Shown in pieces: positions 6,053-49,163 of a stretch of 64,000 bases of DNA. Both the position numbers and the translations under genes were made by a program. How positions within the stretch are numbered: position 1 is the first letter of the stretch; each line of letters begins with the position of its first letter. This DNA comes from Aquila chrysaetos chrysaetos (Eukaryota > Chordata > Aves > Accipitriformes > Accipitridae). The stretch lies in NCBI RefSeq assembly GCF_900496995.4, contig NC_044030.1, positions 77,912,017-77,976,016 of the forward strand, written 5' to 3'. Below the pieces are notes generated by a model. That model made no database searches, was not told the origin of the DNA, and saw only the letters and a program-made list of their open reading frames with translations.

Positions 6053-8149
6053 TTAGGAAACCCAGAGGAAATAGGCGACTTCGTCCAGGTCAACGGGATA
6101 GTCCGTGAGCAGCACTGGGGTCTTCTCAAACAACTCCCCCTTGTAGCTGCGCCACTTGCCTGCCGGCAGGTAGACGTCACGTTCCTGCTTGCCCATCTCC
6201 AGGACAGGGGCCACCATAAGGGTGTCCCCAATGAGGAACTGGGAGTCAATTCTGTGAGTGGCCTCATCGCGGGGTGAGATCCACCAGATGGGACGGATGA
6301 TGGGGTCGCCCGTGTCGGTGACCTCCCCAGCCAGCTCCAGCAGCAGCGGGGCCACCAGCGACTCGTGGAGCTCCGTGAACTTCTGCGCAATCTCCACCAC
6401 CTCCTTGTCGTAGAGCCAGGGCGGGATGGAGAACTGCATGGAGGGCATGAAGGCTGACAGCTCCAGCCACCGCACGTACAGCTCCCGGTCGGGGATCTCC
6501 ACCGCCCCCTCCGTCTTGTTGGGGAGGAAGTTTCCTCCAATCATATCTGGCAGTACAAACGGGTACCCCAGCATGCTGATGGTGAGCACCGTGGGGATGA
6601 GGGACTTGAGGCCGAGCTCGTAGCCCCAGACAGAGTCACGGTCAATGATGCGGAAGAAGCAGGAGATGTTCTGCGACTGGTAGCCCACGCGCACCTCGGC
6701 CAGCTCGTAGAACGGGATGGCCATCTCCGTGTAGCGCCGTGACCAGATGCTGGGGTCCGAGAGTGGGCGGAAGGTGCTGAACTGCTTGGGCAGGTAGCTG
6801 GTCTCGCCTGCATCAAACTTGAAGGACGAGATGCCGTACTTGTGTCGGAGCTGGCGCAGGTGGCTCTGGAACCAGTCCCGGGCTGCTGGGTTGGTGAAGT
6901 CCAGGATGGCCCCGATGCCGTTCCACCACTCCACCATGGCTGGCAGCCGCCCCGATGGCTCCTTGATGAACAGCTGACGCTCAATTCCCACCCCAAAATT
7001 GGAGGAATTGTAGTTTATGAAAGGGTGAGTCCACAGGGTGACCTTAAACCCATCTTCCCTCAGTTTTGCAAACATCTCTGTTACATTGGGGAACTTGATG
7101 GGGTCAAAGTCAAAGTCCCCATAGGCTTGCGTGTACATGTCATCGATTTCAATGTGGCTGCAGTTAAAACGGTACTTCTTGATCTTTTCGGCAAACCGCA
7201 AGAGTTTATCCTGGTCAATATTGTTCTTGTAGAGGGCCCAGGTGGACCAGATGGGGTATCGGAAGGCATTCTCGGCGGGGATCTTGGAGGGCTTGTTGAA
7301 GTACCTGCGCACCATGTACTTGTGGATGGAGGTGACGTCGGAGCCCACGCAGACGCGGTAGCTGAGCTCGGGGAAGGGCTGCTGCCCCGGCGGGGGCTTG
7401 TAGGGCGAGTCCTTGTAGCGGGCCTGGAAGAAGAGGGCACGCTCGGTGGCGTTGAAGCCCAGGTGGAAGGGCACGGAGTCGTTGATCTTGATGGCCGCCG
7501 CCTTGGAGGAGAGCCAGTAGCGCTCGAGGATGCCGCCGAAGCTGTCTCGGAAGGAGTAGACGTCGCTCGTCACGTAGGGCACGGGCTCCTGGTAGCCGGA
7601 CAGGCGGATGGGCCAGTGCTGGGTGCTCATCTCCGAGCCCCCGTACCAGTGGGCGTCCTCCCAGAACATGGTGTGCTCCACCGCCGGGCCGGCCGCCAGC
7701 TCCTCCCAGCGCACGCGGTAGCACATCACCGTGTCCTTGGGCTTCACCGTCTGGATGAAGAAGTTGAGCGGCCCCCCGCCCGACCGTGTGCAGCTCAAAA
7801 TCTCGCCCTCCTTGGAGCACGACTCCAGGTCAAGGCTGCCCGAGCGGAAGGCCAGGCGGAAGACCACCTCCCCGTGCTGGTTCCTGATGACAAAGCCATC
7901 CGCCCGCAGGTCCATCAGCTCCGTCTTGAGCCGCTCCGCCTTCCGCAGGGACACCGTGTAGTAGCACCAGGCCACCACCGCGGCAATGAACAGGATGAGG
8001 CCCAGCAAGATGGCCCCGAGCATGGGCCTCAGCTCCTTGGAGGGCTTCTGCTTCACCGGTGTGACATTTTCAGGCAAACGCCTTTCTTTAGCATCCTCTC
8101 TTTGAGCGTTTCCATGTTTTCCCACACGGTGGGTAATCAGACTGTCCAT
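6053..8149 (-). CDS. MYORG: MYORG, GH31-family membrane alpha-galactosidase
   Basis: The whole protein is in one exon, 698 residues, close to the human length of 714. It is a type II membrane protein: a basic cytosolic N-terminus, a membrane span at residues 43-64, then a lumenal glycoside hydrolase family 31 barrel. The GH31 nucleophile motif KFDAGE places Asp at 446. The general-acid motif RIIDRDS is at 500-506, with D503 aligning with the known acid of the human enzyme if there are no gaps. Several N-glycosylation sequons are visible, for example NDS, NAT, NCS, NVT, NSS, NIS and NKT. The start is firm because an in-frame TGA lies 18 bases upstream (8165-8167) and the stop is TAA at 6053-6055. 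The family protein sits in the ER/nuclear envelope and acts on galactosyl glycans; human loss causes brain calcification. The coding exon is very GC-rich. Upstream noncoding exons are expected but I could not place them. Confidence 0.97.
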
Positions 8150-8167
8150 GACTCCTTTGCAGTGTCA

Positions 8168-17467: not shown

Positions 17468-17522
17468 ATGGAGCTTTTCAGGCTGAGCCTGGGCTGTATT
17501 TGCCTCCTTCCTTGGCTTGATG
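17468..17522 (+). CDS. CysR receptor exon 1, signal peptide
   Basis: It encodes 18 residues, MELFRLSLGCICLLPWLD, plus one base. ATG is in a strong context (ACC before, G after) and the donor GTAAGT is perfect. Its phase 1 end matches exon 2 and completes a Val codon. The residues have the n-region and hydrophobic core of a signal peptide. Confidence 0.75.
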
Positions 17523-20500
17523 GTAAGTTTCTCCTCCTTCGGGGTAGCTGGAAACTGGGAAGTGAACTGCCTCCCAGGTTTTAACCTGCTTTCTTGCTGA
17601 AGCGTTGCTTGGGCTGCAAAGCTCTGAACCCACCAGCTGTAAAACAAGTGCCTATGGGCACATTTCAGGGCAGCATTTAAAATGGGATTAAATGCAGAGG
17701 TACAGCAGAGTGAGGGACAGGCTGGCAAGGTGCTGGGATGGTTTGGCCAGGGACACTGTGGTATCATGCCAGCTACTTTTATAAAGTGCTTTTAAACTGC
17801 TAAGAGTAGCAGATGAATAAACCTGCTCTGGGGGTGAGGCAGGCACTAAGTGACCTCCCAAGCACCCTGTTTGCTCCCTGCCCCAGCTGCTCCTTCCCAG
17901 TAGAGGCAAGTGGGCTCAGGGCATGCTGGCAACATGGGAGAGGGTGGTGGGAAGGGGAGCAGGACCTCATTGCATTAGTCCTGCTCCTGTGGCAGTTGGC
18001 TGGGAGTGGGATGTGCTGGGGAGCTGCGGAGTCTGCACTGCTCATATCCATGGAGCAAACTTGGTAGTGGCTCATGTTAACATTCAGCTGCTTGCTGAGG
18101 TCGCTTGAATCCTGTATCCTGCCCATACAAAGGAGTATTTTGAATCCAAGCAGCCTAGGTTTTGACATGCATGGGTAGATGAGGAAAGCAGAAGTCCTTC
18201 TGAGCATCATCCTGCAGAACCAGAGCAGTTCTACCCACAAACAGCTACCTGGGAGCGGTGCTACCTACGGTCTCGCCTGTCCCATCATGGGTGGTGGGCA
18301 GCATCTATTTTCTTTAGAAATGGGCAAAGCTCCTGAGCTAATAAGTAATTCCCTTTATATTTTGCTGTTATGCCTGAGATGCCAGGTTGAAAGGGACTCA
18401 TTGAAATAAATCCCTGAAGTGCTTCAAGGCTCATTCAGTCCCTGAAGCTGCAAGGAAGACAGCCATACAGTTTTACAGGTTACCTGCTCAGAGCTTTTCA
18501 AGCTCCCTAGACCAGAGGACTACAACTATTTGGGCTGCACAGCTGGGATGTTTATTCCTTAAAGACAAACCTCAGACTGATGCTCTGACCACCTACTTTC
18601 CGTTCCCTGCTCCACGACCTCTAAGTGCATGTTCCCTGGGCTGCTTTGAGCGGCTAGCCCTCAGTTTTCTCTGCAGCCAGGACAAAGGAGAGGTTTGTGC
18701 TCCTACAGATTTGACTTTTGCTCCATCTACTGCTGGTTTTTGCACTCCAAATCTTGCCAATTAAAGTAAAACCAGTGAACTGATTCTCTCATTTTTTTAA
18801 AGCTCCAGGCTGAGGGTATGTCACTGTACTAGTGAGAGGTGAGGATACATACGCATCTTTTAAAAGTTACAGAAGATCTGCTTAGGACCTGGAGGTGACA
18901 GTATGGTGGGATGCCAGGAGAGCAGAACAGCCTTCAGGATCTTGCTCTTTCTCTCGGTCTAATACAGATCTTGTCCAGTGTTAGAAGAAACTGGTTCTTT
19001 ACTGCTGGTGACATGACAGGAGCCCCATTGCTATGTTTTATTAGTAAATTAAGGAGGATCACAGGATATTTCCACAGGACATTTCCTTTCCAGTGAAATG
19101 CTTTTGGTGCAATCGCATGATCAGCCATTGCATTTCAGCCAGACCACTAATAAAACCACAACTGTTTTGCAAGAAAGGAATTTATCTTCCCAATACCTGG
19201 CAATGCCCAAAGCAAGCTCAAAATACAGAGAGCAAAAATGTTCTTACTTGGGGCTGATCTGCCCCCACAGCAGCCTCTCCCCATCCCATCCTTCCTGGGG
19301 CTGCTGAGTTTTAAGGCTGCCGGCAGGACAGAAGTGCGTGCTCTCGACAGACCTTAGAGGGTCTGGAAACTGGAAATCCTGGAATTGCCTAAGCTGTTTC
19401 TGACACTGGTTTCTTTGGAAAGTCCCTGCAAGCAGGGAGGGGGCTGAAATGTTTTCCTAAGAAGTCAAGCCTAGCAGTAACCCAGTGAGGTACCTACCAC
19501 AGGTGGTGGGAAGTCGGGCACCAGCAGGATCTGTGCATATAAAAGCAGAAAGAAAACGGCTGAAATAATACCACATTTAACACTGACTCTCAATTCTTAT
19601 GCACTGAGTGTGAGGCTGGTGGTGGCTCTGCTTGGCATCCTGGCCCAGTCCCATATCCTGGGGGCCGCTGTCCTCCCTGCCAAGCCGATATGCAGTGCTG
19701 GCTGCTCCTTGACCCCTCAAGCCCCGCTCTCCTAAGACAGCCCTAAGCATCTTGCATTGAAGAGGCAGAAAGGCCAAGCTTATCTGATACTTCTCCTCTG
19801 TCATATACTTCTTCAGCCTCCAACTATTTTCTGGTTGGGGGATTTCCTGACCCTGGTGTGTTTAACTCTTCAGTCCTGAACACCGTGAGCCTTCCTTTGC
19901 TGCCTCTTGACCCATCTGGGATCAGTCCTTGACCAGTCAGCCCCTGTCCATCCTCTCCAGACCTCTGGATTTTATAGACCTCCATCATAACCCCCCAGGG
20001 ACAGGTTTTCCCCACATGCATCAGCTTTGCGTAAACTTCACCAACCTCTCCTGCTTCCCATCATTTATCCACGTGTCTTTCTATGCCAAAACCTTCCTTC
20101 TTTTCCTACAACTGCTCCGCTCCCTTGGAGGCCTTTGCTGAGATACTTGGTCAGAAGTGGACCTTGCAGTAATGTGGAAAGCTATGAAGCCTTGTTGGTC
20201 AACCAAAAGCAAGATATTCTCCAGAAAGCAGCAATGATTGGGAAAAAACACAGTCCAATGTGGTGGCCAGAAGCAACAGCTAGGAACTACTCTTGGAGAG
20301 ACACGTTACTGGAAAATAATCTGAGTGATGACCAAGAAGTATTTGCAACCAGGTGCTTGCACTGACAAGCTCTTTGCCAGCTAATTACTGGCAGTTACCA
20401 GTATGCTTTATTGCCTTCTCTATAAAAATGACACAGCTTGATAAGAGTTGATCTGCTGCTTGAAGTGATGGAAATTGTGCTCCCATAAATCCAGAGCTCG

Positions 20501-23500
20501 CAGTGGCCAGGTAGCTGCTCACCCAGCTCTAGTTCTGCCTGTTTTGCTGGGCCCAGTGGGCAGACACCTGTTTGCTCACCAACAGGGACTCACCAGGCTC
20601 CATCTAGCATCATCCTCTCCATAGGTAGATTGGCCACATCCACTGACCTGTCATGGACATTTGTGTCTCTAAACTTTACATCCAAGTACGCACAGTCATA
20701 GGCTGAGGGAGGACCAGGGCAAAATAAAGCTAATGTTTGTTCCAGTCAACAGTCTGTTTTGGAAAAAAATACCTAGTCTCACCTCCTGCCATGCTGGTCT
20801 TGGGCTTGAAGTCAGGCATATAGACAACAGAGTGCCAATCTTACCGCTTCCCTGTGCACATCTGGATTTCCTGCCTTTAAACAAACACACCTGGGTCGCC
20901 ACATTCCTCTTACGACAGCAAGTGCCTTCCAGCTGTTTTTAATTTCTTCATCCCATGGCCCTGGGCCAGACTCCTGTGCAGGCAGCATTGGGGCTTGCTC
21001 TCTTGGATGGAGGGAGATCTTTTCATGAGAAGGAGTTACTGCTGGGCTGCATTCAAGTCTGCTCCTGCTTACTTATTCAAGGCCTTGTTTGTCCATACCT
21101 GACAGCATCTCAAGCTGCTTGCTTCAGCTAGATTCAATATAATGTTTCTACAAGTTATCTTACAGGGCCATATCTTACACTGAGCTCCATCTGCATGGGG
21201 AACCCTCCGGCCTTAACTGGGAGCTTTCGTCTTCTGTTGTTGCATCTTCTCATCTCTATCTGGTCCTGGCCCTCTGCGGGAGGTAGAAACAGCCTGCTGA
21301 GCCCAGGGCAGCTGAGAAACAGCTTCTCCTCCTGTTCAGAACAGACATCTGGCTGAGTTTTCACCCATGGCAGGGTGATAACTTCAGGCTATCACAGCAA
21401 ATTAGTCCTGCTGTTATTGATAGTCACATGAAAGTCCATTCTGCCTTCATCCAACATCTTTCTAGACTGCCTGGTTTTGTAGATGGGCTACAAACGCCCC
21501 ACTCTAGTCCTGAACTTGAATCTGAGTAAGGGATTTTCTGGACAGAAAACGTAGTAGTCCTGCATTACCAGCATGAGGCCCAGCAGCAAGGGCAGGGGAG
21601 GTGAGGTGCTGTGTTTGCCTGAAGGGAGAGGGTCTGATAGTCAGTACCAGGGTAGTGAGAGGTCTTGTCTGCATCACCACAGTGTCTAAGCAGCTAAAGA
21701 TGGCTTTCCACAAAGTCTCTGGTTAATTTTTCTTCTTCTGGGCTGGGGCCATTTCTGGTAGGAGCTGGAGTCCTTCATGGCTGTTTTTAGAGCTAGGGCA
21801 GAGACCAAAATTGCTGGCAGGGCAACTTGAGAGGATAGGACTCTTCCAAACCCTCTTCCCACCTGATGCCCCTTGAACTGCTGCAATAGTTCAACAAGAC
21901 AAGGGGACCCTAAATCCTGGGAGACCTGATATTCAGAGGGAGTTACACAAGAAGGCGAACATATGTAATATATATTAGAGTGGTGTGGGTCAGTCTCCAT
22001 TGATGCATGCTCTGTAGAGAACATATGATCTTTATCTGATATGACCTGCAGTGGCAAACAGTGGAGGTGGATTAACTTGAGCAGGAAACTCTCTGGTTTG
22101 TCTCACCATAACTCAGGCTATGGCACTACTGGTTCCAAGGTTTTTCAGCCATGGCGCATGTACTCCTAGTGCTGTGCTCATTTTGGGTGGAAGCAGCAGA
22201 CACAGCTTGGAGACATTTCTCCAAGCCACTGTTTGGAGGGCTCGGGATGACCTGCTGTCATATGGTGGTACCCAAGAAGAGCCATGTTTGGGAGCTCTTC
22301 TGGGCCATGGGATGTCCCCATGAAGTAGTCCCTACAAGAGGTGCCATGGCTACGGCAGATGGATGCCTGCCTTTGAGGACAGGTAGAGGCAGAAAAAGGT
22401 AAATTCCTGACTGTGACTCAGTGGTCATCTCCCTACAGTAAACACCCACTTGGCAAGAGAAATTGAGCTAATTAAAGGATTTTTCCAAGAGCTAAGAATC
22501 CCACTGGGGAAAGCAAAATAGGCCTAAGCCAATGCTGAGGTTCCCAGGTGACCTGGAGTGTTTTGGGAACCTCTGCTTGCTCGGCTCTGACTTATCCCTT
22601 CCCTCTGCAGAGCCTTTAGAGGGAGCAACCCATCCCCAGATGATTTGCAAATGGCTTTGATCAAGCCATCACAGGCACTGCTGAGAAATGGCAGAAACTT
22701 TCCCAGCCAGACTGGGATTACTGGTAACCAAGGCTTTCCTGGTGGCATTACCTTAATTAGGAATGTTGCATGCTTTTGCTCCTAATCCTACAAGGAACAG
22801 CGTGTCCCAAGGGTGGCCATGCTGCACAGAAGCAGGTGGCTATATTTGCTTGCTTTTCTTCTTGTAACCAGACAGAGTGGCAGTATTATAGGACAAATGA
22901 GCTGCCATCAAGTGCCTTTGCTAGAAATTGTTTATTTTGTTCCTAAAAATACGAAGAGGCCAAAATGTTCAAGCATGAGCAGCTCAAAGCAGGCATCTGC
23001 TCAGGCTCTGTGGGTAAGGCTGGCATTTTCCAGAGACGCTGAGTGCCATCCCCAGGGAGTACTTTGGATGCTCTGCTCGCTCCAGGTTAACATTCCTAAA
23101 ATGTTAGGGCTGATGGCCTTATTTGCAGGGCTGCCGGACAGTGGGACTTGGCAGTGTTGGGGAAAAAAAGTCATTTTGTCTCCGGAGTAAAGATTCTTGG
23201 TGCCTGATGTGTATCCCAAAGTAAATATACTCCAGCGTTATTTGTGGGTCTACCCCTTATGACTGTGTGGGGTATGTGCAATCATTGCTGCCAGTTACCT
23301 GTATCTAATTGTAAGTTGCTCACTTAGACAGCAACATCTCAACCTCAGGAAAGCCATAATGTATGGGTAGTGGATGGTGAACCTGTACGATGGACACAGG
23401 TTCACATTCTTGGTTGGCAAGGATCATGTGAAAGACCACAAGGAAAATCCTGCTGTTGATAGCCAGCCTTACAGAGAACTCAATGTCACTGTCAATAGGG

Positions 23501-26500
23501 AAGACACTTGGACCACAGTTCAGAGGAAAAGTATTATGGCCCCAGCTTTGCTGCCACCCTCCCATGTAATGTTGAACCATACAAAGTTTAACTAGACGTC
23601 TGTTCCCAAGCTGTAAAATGGTGTTTATACTTTTGGACCTGAGGTATGGTGTGAAGATAAAAATCTATCAATAACTTGGTGTCATACACTACTGAGTAGC
23701 TATACCAATCTCAAAGGAAAGCACTTCAGTTGCAGTGTTGAGGTTCCTGAGCTCACATGTATTCCCATGGCAGATGGGCTGCCCTGGACCTTCAGTGGGG
23801 TGAGTCTCTGCAAACTGAAACCTGCATAAAACCAAGAAAGCTGGTAGAAAGGGGCAGCTCAAAAGTGTAAAACGGTAGATAACATGGGGGAACACGATGC
23901 TTGCTGCTAACATGCAGGTAACACAGCGATTCTTTAGAGGGGAACATATACCATCCGGGACTGTACACAGAGAACAAAACACAAATCTGCTGGCTGGGTT
24001 AAACAGCAATGTTTTTCAAAATTTAATAAAAAAAATGAAACTTTCAAATGGACAGTCATTGCCAAGCAAGGAAAAGAAAAAACAGCAGAGATTCTGGCAT
24101 GTTTAATAACAAAACCTATAATAAAACATGAGAAAAAGATTTAGAGGAACAACCTAGAGAGAGCATAAAAAAACTACCAACAGAAACTTTCAAACATATC
24201 TGAAGTATGAACCTGGTGGGGGTAAGGAGGTCAATAAATACCTGGTGTAAACGTAAGGACAACCAAAGCAGGGCAGTGTAGAAAGGCTGAATGAATTATT
24301 GGTTCCAGTGCTCACTTCAGACATGGTCAGGGAGGTACTCACACAGCAGTCACTCTCTGCAGTCTGAAGAGTGTTATCGAACAAAATTGTCAACAGAGGA
24401 AGTTTCAGGGAAAAAAAAGATAAATAATGTGTGGCAAATGACTAGTCCAGATGGCATTCACACTGAGTTACAGGAAGCTAAAGATGACTTTTTTTAAACT
24501 TTTAGGGAGTATGTAAACTCTTATTTCAAGCCCCTTCAGCACCAAAGGACTGCATTACAGCAATTATGTCCCTCTTAAGAGGGATCCTTGCACAGCCTGG
24601 CGAAACACAGGCCACTAGGTTTGATTTCGGCATCAGGCAAGTCAGTAGAAACAAAGAACAGAATTTACAGACAGATAAATATGAGAAAAGTCAATGCAGC
24701 TTTTGTAGTGGGAATGCCTGACATCTGTGATGGCATCAATTAGCATATAAATGTGATGAGTGGATCTAGAACTTGTGCTTGCGTTTGCAAAAGGCTTTTG
24801 ATAAGATTCTTCCACCAAGGCCCTTAAGAAACTCCATTCTCATGAAGTAAGAGAAAGAGCCCACAGGCTGGAACAAAAGAGGTGGAATAAGTTGACAATG
24901 ATGACAGCAGAGTGAAGGTATCAGCAGGTGCCAACAAAGATCAAAAGGGGTGAATAATGAAGTAAATAAGTTTCCTGATGGCACAAAATTATTAAGAATA
25001 ATCAAAACTGAAGCTGACTGTGTGGAGCTGCAGAAGGAGCTCATGATACTGACTGACCAACAAAATGGTTTTTGAACTTCAGAGTTGAAAAATACAATGT
25101 AGTGTACACGGGCAAAATCATTTTTAACCATAAATACCCAGCAATGCTCTCTTAACTAGTTGATACATTTAGGAAGGAGGCTGGCGTCCTTGCTGTCTTG
25201 AGTGAGCTCTTTACTTGGCTGGTTTTTACCCTCTTCCTGTATTAGCAAATGCTAATGCCCAGTGCTGGAGACAGGATACTGGGCTCAGCAGATATTTTAT
25301 CTGACCCAGCACAGTTCTCATGTTCCCCTGTTACATATTTATGCAGCTCTCAAATCATTATTTGGAAATGGGTTTCTCCCAGCTGAGATGAAGCAAAGAG
25401 GTGAGAATCCTGGATTCCAGGTCCTAGAAAAAAACACAGTGGGGGGATTGTATTCATCCCTTTGGATTTTCTAAAGATTATGGGAGATTATATATGAGAC
25501 ATTTCACCTGCCTTTGGAAGCTGGCAGAAACTCAATCCCAAGGTGCATTAAACATCTTCCCTCCATCAAGCCCTCAATAAGGGGTAAAAAGGACAGGACT
25601 CATGAGTTGTCCACGGATCCCCCAGAAATTCAATTTCCACTTAGGCGTGTGGGTTTGGCAGGAATTGCCTGGTTTGGTGGCTATCACAGGTCCATGAAAC
25701 TCACTATCCTAGTGTGGACACAGCCATCCCCATCTCAGAGCCAGTGCAGGAGTCATACTGTGGTTTCTGGCTGCCTCTCCCCACGCATTCAGGCTGAGCA
25801 GAAAGCCCCGAGCTGTTTCTGATTTAACAACCCCCAGGCACTATTAATCTAGCAGACCCCTAGAACTTCCTGAGAGAAGACATAAGAGCTCTTTTAAGCT
25901 ATTGTTCATACCCTTGGTATTGTGTACTGACTTCTGTTTAGACTGTCATTAGTTTTTTCAGGTACTGAGCCAAATACTTGCTGCCAGGGAAAAGTATTGT
26001 TCTTTGCTTTGGGAGGGGAAACTCTGCAAAAATAGTTGTTTAGATAAACATCAGTGTTCTTGTCTAACATCACTTTTCGGACTCCTCTTACACTTTATAC
26101 TCAATACTGTATGCTGATAGGGCTTTTATAACTCTGGGTCCTGGGGAAGAGAGGAAAAAAAAGACTGCAAAAGCTGGGAGTTACCATGTGTTACTTGTAA
26201 TTAAAATTAAAATTAAAATATTTCTCAGAATGTGCAGAAACTTGGAACTTTCATTTCTAACCCTCTGCCTTAGGCATAAAATACACAGCAGAAGGTACAC
26301 CCGCGTCAGTGACAGACGGTTTAGCATTTAACATTTTGCTCAGAATGTTCACAGGCCACACCTGATGATTTTGTACTGAAAACAGGGGCATTTGTCCAGC
26401 TAACAGGATGATATCCATCCTAAGTTATCAGAGATGTTGGGACCCATTGCTATTAAAAGCAATTACAGAAATTTCTTCAAACTGTGTGTCTGCTGTGGGG

Positions 26501-29500
26501 TGGCTGTGACGTCTTTCTCTTACAAAGGGATCGTTAAAAATGGTACCTTCATGCCTGGGAAGCACAGACCAATGTCAGGTGTGCTAAACCCAAGTTCATT
26601 CCAATATTTAGATGAGCTGTGTCAGCCAAGTACTTCCAGACTTCTGATGGGGTATGGTTTTATCCTGGTGTTGCTGTAATATCACCAGAAGCCACTTAAT
26701 GGAAACGGTAGCCCAAGGTGACTTAATTGGCCCCAGATGAATAGCGCCTGGGGAATTCAGGAGTTTCAATTGCTTTTTTTGTAAGAAAGATTTGATCCAG
26801 ATAGGGGCAAAAAAACCCCAAACCATCCAATTATTTGGGAGGTAGGAAAGGATGGGTACCTATTTAAAGCTATAATCAGTTGAAATATTGAATTAAATAT
26901 ATATAGGTAGATATTTCTTAAACAGCACAACTTTTTCCTCATTAGTTACATGGGTTACTTATGTCATTGTTATTTTACTCTAGTATTGCTCCTGGCTATT
27001 TGCACACCCTGTATTTTAAAGAAATATCATTCTGGGGAGTTAGAAACGTGGGGGTACTGTTTATCTGGGCATGCCCATCCAGGAAAGGACAGGTGGCTTA
27101 TGTCTCCCCTTCCCCAGGCCATTTACAACATCTAGCGCTCAGAAGATGTGTTTGCCTCAGACATGCACAGTACTAAACCATGCTCTGATTGTACCACAGT
27201 AGCAGACGGACAAGGCTTCCTCATAAGGAACACCCGGCTGGAAAAGTGCATTCGCGTCTCCCACCACGAGACCAATGGCATCAGCCTGACCAACTGCAAG
27301 GCGGACTCCCAGCAGCAGCAGTGGAGCTGGGACTCCGCCACCAGGACCATCATCAACCTTCAAACGAAGCAGTGCTTGTCGGCCCAAAAGACCCAGAAGC
27401 ATGCTGTGGTCAAGATGGAGCCCTGCGGGGACTGGGAACGCCAAGCGTGGTCCTGCAGCAAGAAGGGACACGTGACTCTGCAGAGCTTGGGCTTCCACCT
27501 CAGCACCAAGGAAGGAGGCCACAAGGTCTTTGTCTCAAGGGAGAAGGACAAATTCAGCAGGTGGAAGACTTTAGCAGATGAGACCATCTGTGCTGCTGCG
27601 CAGACAGCAGCTCCGAGGCCCAGCAAACCAAGGCAACAAGCTGTAGACACACATGTGTGGATCTATGAAAGTAAGATGAGGTAGATTTAGCATCAGATAA
27701 CATCTAACCTTACATGTCTTCCAAGCCACCTAACACCAGGCTTGCATCCATCATTCTAACTCATGTTCATTTTGGCCCCATCTGGAGAGACACCAAATGG
27801 CTCTGAGTCAGCCCAACTACTTGTTACCACGGGTTTCCAGTAGTTGCTGTTCTGTGTTTTCCAGAAAGCACACAACACCTTACAGGATCAGGTCTCTAAA
27901 CCCCAGCTGCATTTCTGATGACAGGCAAAGGTCAAGTATTTTGGAAAGTTCATCTGAGTTGGTGCCCAGAGCTAAGAATAGTTGGAATTGCTTGAGCCTC
28001 CGAGTCCAAAACAACCAAGGAAGTTCCATAAAGTCAAGCACTTAAGACTTTGAAGGGGCTTTTGGTACTTTGTACTTTGGGATGTCATTTTTGGTAACAA
28101 GAAAACTGGAGGCAGCTGAAAACCTCTTTTAAACTTGTATGAATTATCGAGAAGCAGCTATATTTGAAATGAGAAATTGTTGCTTCAGTTTCTAAGCAAC
28201 ACATTACAGACCCCAACAGTGCAGCTTTCACTATTGAAACCACAGTTCTAACCTTCATCCCGTGCTCTCATGATCCTCAAAAGTGAACCTTGCTCCTGGT
28301 GCCTGATGTAGCCATAAAGACACTAGTGAACACAGCAAGTAGTGGGAGGTAGTTAAAGCACTGCCCTCCCTTTGCATTAAGATGATCTAGAACATGACAT
28401 CAAAAGTTATAAAAAATCTGTTTTATATTATCAGTTTCATGGCCTTGGCCTCTGCTAAAAAAGAATCTAATCTCTGCCTTCATGAGTGTTCACTATCCTC
28501 TGCCTAGACTGGACACAAAAAGGGTAGAAACCCTGGTCCTGTCATAGTTTTAGGTGTTGGACACCAGGCTAACAGACATCAGGCATGCTCATTGCACCAA
28601 GATGTGACTGTCACCGTTTGTCAGATGGCCAGTGAAGCCCATTGCGGACCACTGATCATTCATGGTCCAGTCTGTCTCCCTCTTTCATTTAGTCCCTTAT
28701 GCAAAGAAAGGTGGTTTCAGGACTTTTCTTGTATAGTTGTGTGCAGAACTGAGACCTGAAAATCACTCTCAATTCCTCCCCTCATCCTCTCCTCCTCTCC
28801 TTTCTTCCACTCCAGGGACTAGAAGAGAGCTGGCGTTTGTAATGACTTTTCTGTGTTTGCCCACTCTGTAGGTGATGAGGTTACCAACCTTCCTCAGGGG
28901 AAATTACTTCCCTTACATGTGGCTATTCCTTACCTTAAGGCTTGATAGCCCCAGTGAGATTTTCAGCTTTACAGAAATGAGTAAAGAGAAAATGTGATGA
29001 ATCTGGTTGGCATAAGCAAACAGATTATGAGTATAAACTTTTGACATACAGAGGCTATATGTAATTTGAAATAGAAAGAGATACAACAGCTTTTTTGGCT
29101 GTCATGTGCAGATAAGATGGCCTTTTTACTGAGGTTTTTAATTAGCCAACTAGAAGGTTAACATGTAATTATCACAGTAGTCACAAGTGTTAGAGTTTGT
29201 TTAACATGAAGGTAAAAACAGCCAATACAAATTAAATACCATAATAAGCTAGTTAAATATAGGCTAGGAAATGCTGGAACATTTAAGATATGGGAAAAAG
29301 GCATGTGAAAAGGGCGTTGCATTCCCCAAGGCAATGTTCTTGGCAGCCCAGGGCTGCCTTGGATCCAGGCTCCCCAAATAAGGCTGCAAGGGTAAACACA
29401 GAGCAGGCTTTGAATCAGGTTGTGCCAGTTAGTGTGTCCTGTGCAAACTGATAATTTTCCTATCAAACCCATGAGTCTACTGGAGGGAACCTCTGACTAC

Positions 29501-32116
29501 TGAGTAAAAACATCAAAGTCCTATGGGTTTGTTTATGCCTTTCTTATCCAAGTTTCAGCTGACCATTGACAGACAACTTTTACTTCGGCGGGTTATTTGC
29601 TCAATAAATTACACCTGTGCCCCTGCGGATGATTGTGCCACAGGTTGGGATAAGCAGTGGGGAGCCCTACAGATATGGGTTTCTTGATCACGCCACACGC
29701 ATCAGTGCAGGACAGGGGTGACTATTGCTGCCACAAGATTTCCCATAACCTCCCCTCTAGCAGTAATTGCTACCCCACATACCCTACTTCTGCAGTAAGA
29801 CTGGCAAGGCAAAGCATGCCGTTGAGCCTTGCAAGAGGTATGGACTATTTACCACCCTTTTGATCCCATTTCTTCATCTGCTGTGTTGGTAATATCTGTG
29901 ATGCTTCCACTTGCCTCTTCCTCACACCTCATCCTTTAACAGCTGGTGTTGCACTTGTACTTTTTAGACCAATGACCTTATTTACCACCAGAAAACAAGC
30001 TCTGCTTTGGCTGTGGATTCCATCTTGAGAGGTTAATTTCATCTTTGAAATCTGTGAGAATTGAAGGCTCCTGATGCACAGGAGGAGGTGATCGCTATTG
30101 CACCAAGTCCTGTTTGCCTTGCAGGGTAGAGGACTAACACAACAGGGCTGGGTTCCCTTCACTTGCCAGGCACTAAGCGTATCCAGGTTTCTGTACAAAA
30201 AGTAAATGATAATCACACACATCTTTGCTTTATTTCCTTCCAAGGTAAAACCATTGATTCATCAAAGATCGATGCCATGGACAGAGAGTCTTCTGTAAGC
30301 TTGACTGACCCACCTCTGGCTAACAAATTTAACAGCACAGTGTCTCCAGTGAAGACCAAACAGCCATATCTCCCAGCAAACGAGGGTGAGCAGGTTTTTT
30401 TTTCTGAATGCATATGTGAGAACAGCAGGATGGAAAGTGTGGGTGGTATCTAGAGATTACTCGAGTATTTTCAGTAGTGGTAAGTACCCGAGTACTTCTG
30501 AAGAACTTCCATGTGTACCACTGACTAGTTCAAGGCTTTGCTCTCACACAACATGTTGAAGTGCTTGCCTTGACAAGTGGTTCAGTGATACAGCCATAGT
30601 CTTAACCTGGAGGCACAGCCATCAGACGTTCTAGGAGCAAAAAATATCTGTGGCTGGGGAACGCTGATGAACAAGAAAGTTTCCTTTCCCTTCCAGCTCC
30701 ATACAAAGGGGATTTGTAGTTACAGTGCAGCCCCAGGAGGAAGTTGGAGCTTCCTCCAGTCCAACAGTAGAAGCTGCTAATCTGAGTCTCTCTGTTTCTT
30801 CCCCCAGATTCGTCCCACAATCACTCTAAAAAGCACCATGGAAATCGAGGGAAAAATGCTGGGTCCAGGCTTGCAGGTAGGTCCAGGCATCAGCCAGAGG
30901 AGGAAAAGACCAGGTGGATGAAAGTTCATCAGTGCCCCTGACCTTCCCATCAATACAGAGTTACATTCCCCTGAGTCCCACTGAGGATGCTCAGCAGGGA
31001 GCAAGGGTACAAAACTACCTGTCAGAAAAACTCCTTTTAAAGATTAAACAAATCTCCCCAGGCCTGGAGTACAAAAGTGAGTAACAACATGGAAACACTT
31101 TGTCCCTGCTCACCAGGAGACATAGATACCCACTAGCACCAGTGCCTTCCCCCAGCCCTTCTTATTGCGTATCAAATAGCTGCAGAGTGGAGAAGCTTGA
31201 ATAGTTATCATCTTCCTAGCAAGAAAGAAAACCTTTTTGTGGCCATTTTCAATAGAGGGATGCTGTGCAGTGTAAAGTAACTGTAAGATGTTGATCTTAT
31301 GGACAAAGCATTTTTCCTGTTACCTGCTAGTCTTCAGGGACATAGAAGAAAAAAAACCAAAAACCACAGGTGGTTCTTGTGGCAGTCGTGGCTATTGCGT
31401 AAGAACAGGGATAGGTTCTTCAGTAAACGCATGATTGTTTTCTATGACATCCTTTCAGGCACCAACTGGAAGACAGCCATGCTGGTCCTCAGCCCCTTGG
31501 CATTCATACTGGGATTAATAATACTGACACTCAATGTTCATTACAACAAGTAAGTGAGATTCAGGTTCATTCAGTTGCCACTTCCCTGCCCAGCATTTCA
31601 AAACAAAAGTCTTGCTCTTGGCATCCTTCCCCATCCCACACCTGAACTGTCTGGCTCTGAGCAGATGCGTCTGCTCACCCATGATGTCACCCTTGATGAT
31701 TTCTCCTCTCTGCCACCCTGCTTGTCCCTCCCACTCACTATCCCATGTAAATGCAGCCGCTAATGTTGGCTCCTCCTTTCCTACACACCTCATGCCATCC
31801 CTGAAGGTTTAGGGAATGTGGGCACCACGGTTGCTGAACCAGTTGACATGGAGAAGCAACCAAGTGACAGGCAGATGCAGTTACGTACCTTCTTCTCTCT
31901 TCTGCTAGGAAGAAGAAAATCCTCTCTGCTCTGAAGAGCTCCCCAGGCAACAGCAGCAGAGCTGACTTACGGGAGCCATCTCCCTTACGAAGAGGTCCCC
32001 AGCCGTACCTGCCACCATCTCGCTCCCCCTCCTTGAGGCACGGAGAGATCCTCATTGAGTGGAAAGATGGGACTGTTACTCCTCTTTTTGATAATGCCAA
32101 TTATCAAATGGACTAG
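17468..32116 (+). CDS. Stand-alone CysR-domain type I membrane receptor, six exons
   Basis: I reconstruct joined exons 17468-17522, 27200-27670, 30245-30385, 30808-30876, 31459-31549 and 31909-32116. All have GT-AG borders and keep one frame, giving 344 residues. Order: hydrophobic signal peptide (1 to about 18); one cysteine-rich domain (about 22-150) with six Cys (35, 51, 77, 94, 104, 149), QxW motifs at 58-60 and 100-102 and FSRW at 137-140; a Ser/Lys/His-rich stalk with an NST sequon (205-207); a membrane span (about 252-272); and a basic-start tail (276-344) ending LFDNANYQMD. The domain resembles the N-terminal CysR of the mannose receptor/PLA2R family, which binds sulfated glycans in MRC1. 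The FNII and C-type lectin domains of that family are absent. FDNANY matches the FxNxxY clathrin-adaptor pattern. I infer an endocytic lectin-like receptor; the ligand is unknown. The start has a strong ACCATGG context. The weakest link is the long first intron. Confidence 0.8.
19940..20190 (-). repeat. Probable degraded CR1 LINE fragment, reverse orientation
   Basis: Blocks such as TTTATAGACCTCCATCATAACCC and, further on, GAGATACTTGGTCAGAAGTGGACC follow the order seen in the reverse complement of old CR1/L3-type LINE 3' regions. Divergence is high and the borders are uncertain. Confidence 0.4.
24100..25330 (+). repeat. Ancient CR1 LINE, reverse-transcriptase region to 3' end
   Basis: Ordered blocks match the coding strand of old amniote (turtle-like) CR1. 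AGTCCAGATGGCATTCAC near 24450 lies in the reverse-transcriptase entry region. AAAAGTCAATGCAGCTTTTG (about 24686) and AAAAGGCTTTTGATAAGATT (24788) follow, then GATGGCACAAAATTATTAAG (about 24977). The 3' tail has ACAGGATACTGGGCTCAG and TCTGACCCAGCACAGTTCTC (25271-25320). Stops and small gaps break all frames, so it is long dead. Its divergence suggests insertion well before modern birds diversified. Confidence 0.85.
27200..27670 (+). CDS. CysR receptor exon 2, CysR beta-trefoil domain
   Basis: This exon encodes residues 19-175 (the split Val codon is 19) and contains the whole cysteine-rich domain with all six Cys and both QxW motifs. The acceptor is CCACAG and the donor GTAAGA, phase 1 on both sides, so the domain sits in a single shuffle-ready exon. 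An in-frame ATG just upstream (27166) lies in the would-be intron and lacks a signal peptide, so I do not use it. Confidence 0.88.
30245..30385 (+). CDS. CysR receptor exon 3, stalk
   Basis: It encodes residues 176-222 plus one base. It is a polar, Ser/Lys/Pro-rich extracellular linker with one N-glycosylation sequon (N205). The acceptor follows a pyrimidine tract (TTTATTTCCTTCCAAG) and the donor is GTGAGC. Phase is 1 at both ends. Confidence 0.8.
30808..30876 (+). CDS. CysR receptor exon 4, His/Lys-rich stalk
   Basis: This is a small 69-base, phase 1-1 exon. It encodes residues 223-245 plus one base, with a HNHSKKHHGNRGK stretch. The acceptor has a strong pyrimidine tract (TTTCTTCCCCCAG) and the donor is GTAGGT. 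Being symmetric, it could be skipped without changing frame. Confidence 0.72.
31459..31549 (+). CDS. CysR receptor exon 5, transmembrane span
   Basis: It encodes residues 246-275: a short polar entry, then a hydrophobic span (MLVLSPLAFILGLIILTLNV) and the start of the basic stop-transfer. The acceptor is CCTTTCAG and the donor GTAAGT. It ends in phase 2. Confidence 0.82.
31909..32116 (+). CDS. CysR receptor exon 6, cytoplasmic tail
   Basis: It encodes residues 276-344 and the TAG stop (32114-32116). The tail starts with four Lys, has a Ser/Pro/Arg-rich middle, and closes with EWKDGTVTPLFDNANYQMD, which contains the FxNxxY internalisation-type motif (336-341). The acceptor is TCTTCTGCTAG. Confidence 0.82.
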
Positions 32117-36272: not shown

Positions 36273-40556
<4,284 letters not shown>

Positions 40557-48549: not shown

Positions 48550-49163
48550 ATGGCTTCATGCCTTTATGAATGCCTTTGTGAGGCAGAACTTGAAAAATAC
48601 TATCCCCATTTTGCTGCCTTCGGTGTTGAGAAGATTGATGAGCTTGCCAAAGTTTCCACAAAAGATTATACCAAACTAGGGGTCCATGACATGAATGACC
48701 GCAAACGACTCTTTCAGCTCATTAGAATAATCAAAATTATGCAGGAGGAAGACATTGCAGACTTAAGCAAGCAAGATTTTCAACGAAGTGGCCTTTTCGT
48801 TCAGCCTCAGGTGACCAGATCAGGTCCCCGTAGACAGCTGCGTTTTGAGTCCTTCTTTGAAGAAAATGATGGAACAGTTAAAGACTCTGAATCTGAATCA
48901 TATGGTTCATCTGATTTCAGTGCTAATGAAGAGAAGAACAGTGTAGGGGAAATGTTGGGACACATTCAACCACATGATTCAGAGCTGATCAGATTAACTA
49001 GAAGAGACCTAAGTACTTCTGGAATATGCACAAAAAAGGACCTGAGCTGTCCAACAGTTTCTGATGATATTGCTCCTCTCCTGGGGGATTCTGAAGCTCC
49101 TATTGTACAAAGAATAACTCATATTTCAGGGTATAATTATGGACTACCACATTCCTGTGTCAG
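48550..49163 (+). CDS. KIF24: KIF24 coding exon 1, SAM-like domain and linker
   Basis: This exon covers residues 1-204 plus two bases. The exon itself starts at 48536 after TTTCTTGTAG, with 14 untranslated bases. It ends with [12 protein letters not shown] and donor GTAATA. The linker is rich in Ser, Glu and Asp. Confidence 0.95.

Follow-up and report, generated by a model that had tools for sequence, protein, structure and literature searches.

We found that a 14.6-kb gene in a 64,000-nucleotide stretch of Aquila chrysaetos chrysaetos DNA (hereafter, the window; contig C37 of a 1.23-Gb genome) encodes a type I vertebrate membrane protein with a signal peptide, a single CysR beta-trefoil domain, a variable stalk, and a membrane span and cytoplasmic tail resembling those of OSTbeta (SLC51B). 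OSTbeta crosses the membrane once and is a subunit of a bile-acid transporter. The structure of the gene, its conservation, the CysR fold (as a structure model), and the sequence kinship between the C-terminal half and OSTbeta were established computationally. The protein may act as a helper or as a receptor that has yet to be studied. The explanation that we place foremost, with confidence somewhat short of even, is that its OSTbeta-like span and tail would dock onto a partner protein.

A six-exon gene conserved from sharks to birds

The six exons, all on the + strand, join at GT/AG sites (GT..AG in 5/5 introns; end phases 1, 1, 1, 1, and 2) to give exactly 344 residues, with the stop at 32116. 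The product of six phase-matched exons put forward in an initial annotation, made from the letters of the window alone, was thus reproduced, and independently annotated products in Falco, Dromaius, Anas, and Gallus have the same length of 344 aa. Exon 1 (17468..17522) carries the start codon and codes for a signal peptide (MELFRLSLGCICLLPWLD, called by eye); it ends in phase 1, and the joint is the same in a Grus model (P0026). The entire CysR domain, a ricin-B beta-trefoil with six cysteines, is contained in exon 2 (27200..27670), which runs from phase 1 to phase 1. Exon 3 (30245..30385) codes for the stalk and includes the sequon at N205, while exon 4 (30808..30876) is a 69-nt cassette rich in basic residues and His. 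The membrane span, preceded by a conserved Trp, is encoded by exon 5 (31459..31549), where the OSTbeta-like module begins. Exon 6 (31909..32116) supplies the cytoplasmic tail with a conserved SLRHGEILIEWKDGTVTPLFD block, the sequence FDNANY at the C-terminus, and the stop codon.

Counting in the joined product bore out a single CysR domain, its six cysteines, and a pair of QxW motifs (residues 58 and 100); two more cysteines lie in the signal peptide. There is a single strong hydrophobic span (19-residue Kyte-Doolittle windows above 1.6 start at 249-256), and sequons outside it are at residues 205 and 227. An N-terminal CysR domain with six cysteines was present in 24/24 rows of an orthologue alignment. 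Exon 4 was present in its bird, alligator, and squamate rows and absent from a turtle row (P0071), from cartilaginous and bony fish rows, and from most amphibian rows (a few residues in frog P0117). Grus isoform X2, at 319 aa, lacks exon 4; its omission from the window gene leaves 321 residues. No match was found in an Rfam scan, and no tandem repeats were found within the gene.

A search with the CysR exon returned 34 proteins, the named ones being from birds and one lizard, while a search with an eight-sequence alignment returned 267. Statements on orthologues below refer to the best 120 of these 267 matches (9 of the 120 without a name), scored among the 7,993 candidates with the most words in common. 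They are full-length uncharacterized proteins, mostly of ~295-373 aa, plus many partial ones, from birds, crocodilians, turtles, squamates, amphibians, lungfish, coelacanth, sturgeon, paddlefish, and sharks and rays. Comparison with other proteomes, suggested in the initial annotation, thus yielded uncharacterized orthologues, and the gene is not bird-specific but extends from shark to bird. None of these matches was mammal-named (nine are nameless), and loss in mammals is likely, as judged from this distribution. In many annotated orthologues, exon 2 is joined to the exons that follow it. The longest contig of the chicken LOC427400 (344 aa) cluster is 3,061 bases, as against 14.6 kb for the gene, from which we infer spliced transcripts. 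Since conservation extends from shark to bird, chance is excluded, and the six-exon vertebrate gene is confirmed as real.

The existence of the gene is not new: it is already annotated, as uncharacterized. As the initial annotation had supposed, it has no symbol of its own, the only labels among the matches listed being LOC numbers and si:dkey-245n4.2, the name of a zebrafish gene. Chicken LOC427400, crane LOC129199959, and shark entries labeled si:dkey-245n4.2 are orthologues by full-length match, differing in length and in exon 4. No function is given for them in the listed records or in the open-licence literature searched. That literature, which omits most subscription journals, contained no paper that we could find on the domain make-up, function, or OSTbeta relation of the gene, and none connecting CysR lectin recognition with the OSTalpha/OSTbeta transporter. 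One paper, PMC9210284, has si:dkey-245n4.2 in a deletion table.

The open frame of exon 2 continues upstream of its acceptor (27136-27199, + strand), and text akin to this stretch (e.g., ASDMHSTKPCSDC) occurs in other bird records, including an Apteryx NCBI model; it is either an edge of the intron that has been conserved or part of an alternative exon 2 of greater length. An upstream start of exon 2, from the frame open at 27136 or from a CTCAG acceptor, was disfavored, Grus and lizard models being joined at the position equivalent to VADGQGF. Contrary to this joint, the Apteryx model (P0003, 222 aa) reads the upstream stretch and ends after exon 2.

Relation of the span and tail to OSTbeta

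The initial annotation had listed a stalk, span, and tail without assigning them to a family. All three are present, and the span and tail are related to OSTbeta. The Pfam OSTbeta family (PF15048) matched 16/16 C-terminal pieces of orthologues at E<=1 (best E, 2.8e-9; 27.6 bits for the first piece, compared with a cut-off of 27), while the next-best family matched 5/16. Full-length orthologues also matched PF15048 (10/10, E from 1e-6 to 8e-4). When PDB sequences were searched with a C-terminal profile, the only matches at E<0.1 were two OSTbeta sequences, and a whole-protein profile found OSTbeta at E 0.017. A profile-profile comparison (hhalign) with mammalian OSTbeta, represented by 19 proteins picked from 120 OSTbeta proteins listed, gave a probability of 96.1% and an E of 3e-9 (for a single comparison) over 96 columns, which take in the pre-span Trp and the tail block; with the whole-protein alignment the probability was 94.7%. 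This match was reached by 0/150 column shuffles made overall and by 0/150 made within segments. With the database size set to 177,635, the C-terminal profile detected 103 of the 120 OSTbeta proteins of that list at E<1, 75 of them at E<0.01, and none of the reversed sequences.

Like OSTbeta, the product has one span, preceded by a Trp and followed by basic residues, and its tail block can be aligned with OSTbeta. It differs from OSTbeta in its signal peptide, in the lectin-type domain that it carries outside the cell, and in the near invariance of its tail block (GEILIEWKDG) from shark to bird. The results thus show that the C-terminal half is related in sequence to OSTbeta, and common descent of the span and tail with OSTbeta appears likely from these comparisons.

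The CysR domain and the mannose receptor family

The CysR exon was predicted to adopt a beta-trefoil fold in a structure model. It scored 47.3 bits with PF00652 (ricin-type beta-trefoil lectins), and 10/10 orthologues exceeded the 29-bit cut-off of that family. With Pfam CysR_MRC2_N, the window exon scored 31.8 against a cut-off of 27; none of the ten orthologues passed, and four matched below the cut-off. Matches to Pfam CDtoxinA (best, 22.2 bits against 22) were read as a common ricin-like fold, and toxin identity was rejected. The domain may be a lectin-like glycan binder.

Members of the mannose receptor family (MRC1, MRC2, PLA2R1, and LY75) share an N-terminal six-cysteine CysR domain, which is followed by an FNII domain and then by C-type lectin domains, 8 or 10 in number; the product described here totals 344 aa, and neither FNII nor C-type lectin domains were found in it. 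No Pfam match to FNII or C-type lectin domains was found in 10/10 orthologues scanned, in agreement with the proposal of a stand-alone CysR membrane protein and against homology to a larger known receptor. As in the mannose receptor family, the domain is encoded by a single exon with phases 1 and 1. Among paralogous CysR exons of the same genome, whose splice sites were chosen by eye, a phase-1 acceptor was seen in 6/6 and a clear phase-1 donor in 5/6 (weak in L002). Trp117 of the mannose receptor CysR domain stacks on the ring of a sulfated sugar, GalNAc, according to PMC4635314. This residue was found in 0/24 aligned rows, the corresponding position being F in 15, L in 8, and T in 1. In a tree of CysR domains, the lone-CysR group forms one side of a branch with support of 47/71; the long branch L003 is unsure, and we claim no origin from this tree.

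Three CysR exons (L004-L006, contig C3 of G000) lie within ~130 kb of each other. This cluster fits the tandem array of MRC1L genes reported in chicken (PMC4229073).

Proposed function, alternatives, and genomic context

In the mechanism that we propose, the OSTbeta-like span and tail would associate with a seven-span partner of the OSTalpha class, either SLC51A or one of the orphan TMEM184 proteins, and would bring this partner to the cell surface, or keep it there, as OSTbeta does with OSTalpha. The CysR domain would catch a glycan or glycoprotein ligand and couple it to the seven-span partner. OSTalpha and OSTbeta reportedly must interact in order to be stable and to reach the plasma membrane (PMC4924846). 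In PMC9333335, TMEM184A-C are placed in the Solute_trans_a family with SLC51A, as likely homologues of 12-14% identity, and no transport activity is reported for TMEM184A; this protein has been described elsewhere as a receptor for heparin (PMC12154307). By analogy with these systems, a partner of the OSTalpha/TMEM184 class combined with a glycan-recognizing head is plausible. A bolder version, which we consider rather unlikely, would make the protein the founder of a class of lectin-bearing OSTbeta-like subunits, in which CysR brings a glycan-bearing ligand, perhaps a sulfated one, to an orphan protein of the OSTalpha type, for instance TMEM184A. OSTalpha-class proteins of jawed vertebrates would then have a second, lectin-carrying kind of beta-subunit, which mammals have apparently lost.

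Several results weigh against OSTbeta kinship or against docking of the OSTbeta type. Nine of the ten full-length orthologues scored under the 27-bit PF15048 cut-off, and one above it. In the converse search, a mammalian OSTbeta profile matched long orthologues (the 84 of 120 listed with at least 290 aa) weakly, with 11/84 at E<0.01 and 74/84 at E<1 (reversed sequences, 0). The shuffling and reversal controls break natural order, and real one-span families were covered by the Pfam and PDB scans only. The OSTbeta-type motif [DE]LL[DE] was found after residue 150 in 0/24 aligned rows; the ELLEE motif of OSTbeta is reportedly essential for association with OSTalpha (PMC4924846). A hairpin modeled in the tail does not occur in an elephant OSTbeta model, where residues 98-128 have pLDDT <50, and it was therefore dropped as proof of kinship. 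Modest scores, mostly under the cut-off, and a weak converse search would fit convergence of short single spans with basic ends, single-span matches being vulnerable to composition effects; the protein would then be a CysR adhesion or decoy receptor on an unrelated anchor. We hold this to be improbable: segment-wise shuffles and reversed sequences fail to reproduce the match, the match extends past the span through the tail block, and OSTbeta is found in all 16 members, compared with five for the next family.

Nearly as likely as the partner model is a lone endocytic or trafficking lectin receptor acting via its tail. CysR would bind a ligand, and the tail would make direct contact with an adaptor in the cytoplasm by way of the EILIEWKDG block and, in some tetrapods, also by FxNxxY; OSTbeta kinship would then reflect common descent, with no OSTalpha-type partner. 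The almost invariant tail block and the missing [DE]LL[DE] motif speak for it, as does FxNxxY/F in 8/24 aligned rows (FDNANY in the window gene); MRC1-clade tails are described as carrying a potential phi-xNxxY endocytosis motif (PMC4229073). Against it, FxNxxY/F is absent from 16/24 rows, including shark, sturgeon, and coelacanth, and the OSTbeta match of the span itself is left unexplained. We give hardly any credence to the exons being wrongly joined or belonging to a larger gene of the mannose receptor family. The start phase of the CysR exon is that of all six paralogous CysR exons, and the Apteryx model stops after exon 2; yet the same full product occurs in many species, the orthologues scanned lack FNII and C-type lectin domains, and the gene is flanked on both sides by other genes. 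A fragment of a larger receptor was ruled out by the orthologue models.

The flanking genes, recognized by their Pfam domains, are a GH31 gene (6065-8158, - strand), presumably MYORG, and a NUDIX gene (36276-36590), which we take to be NUDT2; the CysR gene is placed between them. A SAM-domain exon beyond the NUDIX gene (48580-49101) is assumed to belong to KIF24, and the order of neighbors would match that of human 9p13. When open frames of the window were ranked by codon usage, the CysR frame came second, after the GH31 gene and slightly over the NUDIX gene. An open frame at 38671-39012 (+ strand) resembles, by eye, a remnant of a CR1-type reverse transcriptase; it had no Pfam match at E<=0.01.

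A receptor-like gene that has been kept from shark to bird, with a tail block almost unchanged, is given neither a name nor a function in the records searched, and the OSTbeta kinship of its span and tail alters what the protein may do. The two halves indicate two known systems, so that a partner and a ligand can be tested directly. Partner docking of this kind could help to give the orphan TMEM184 proteins a role.
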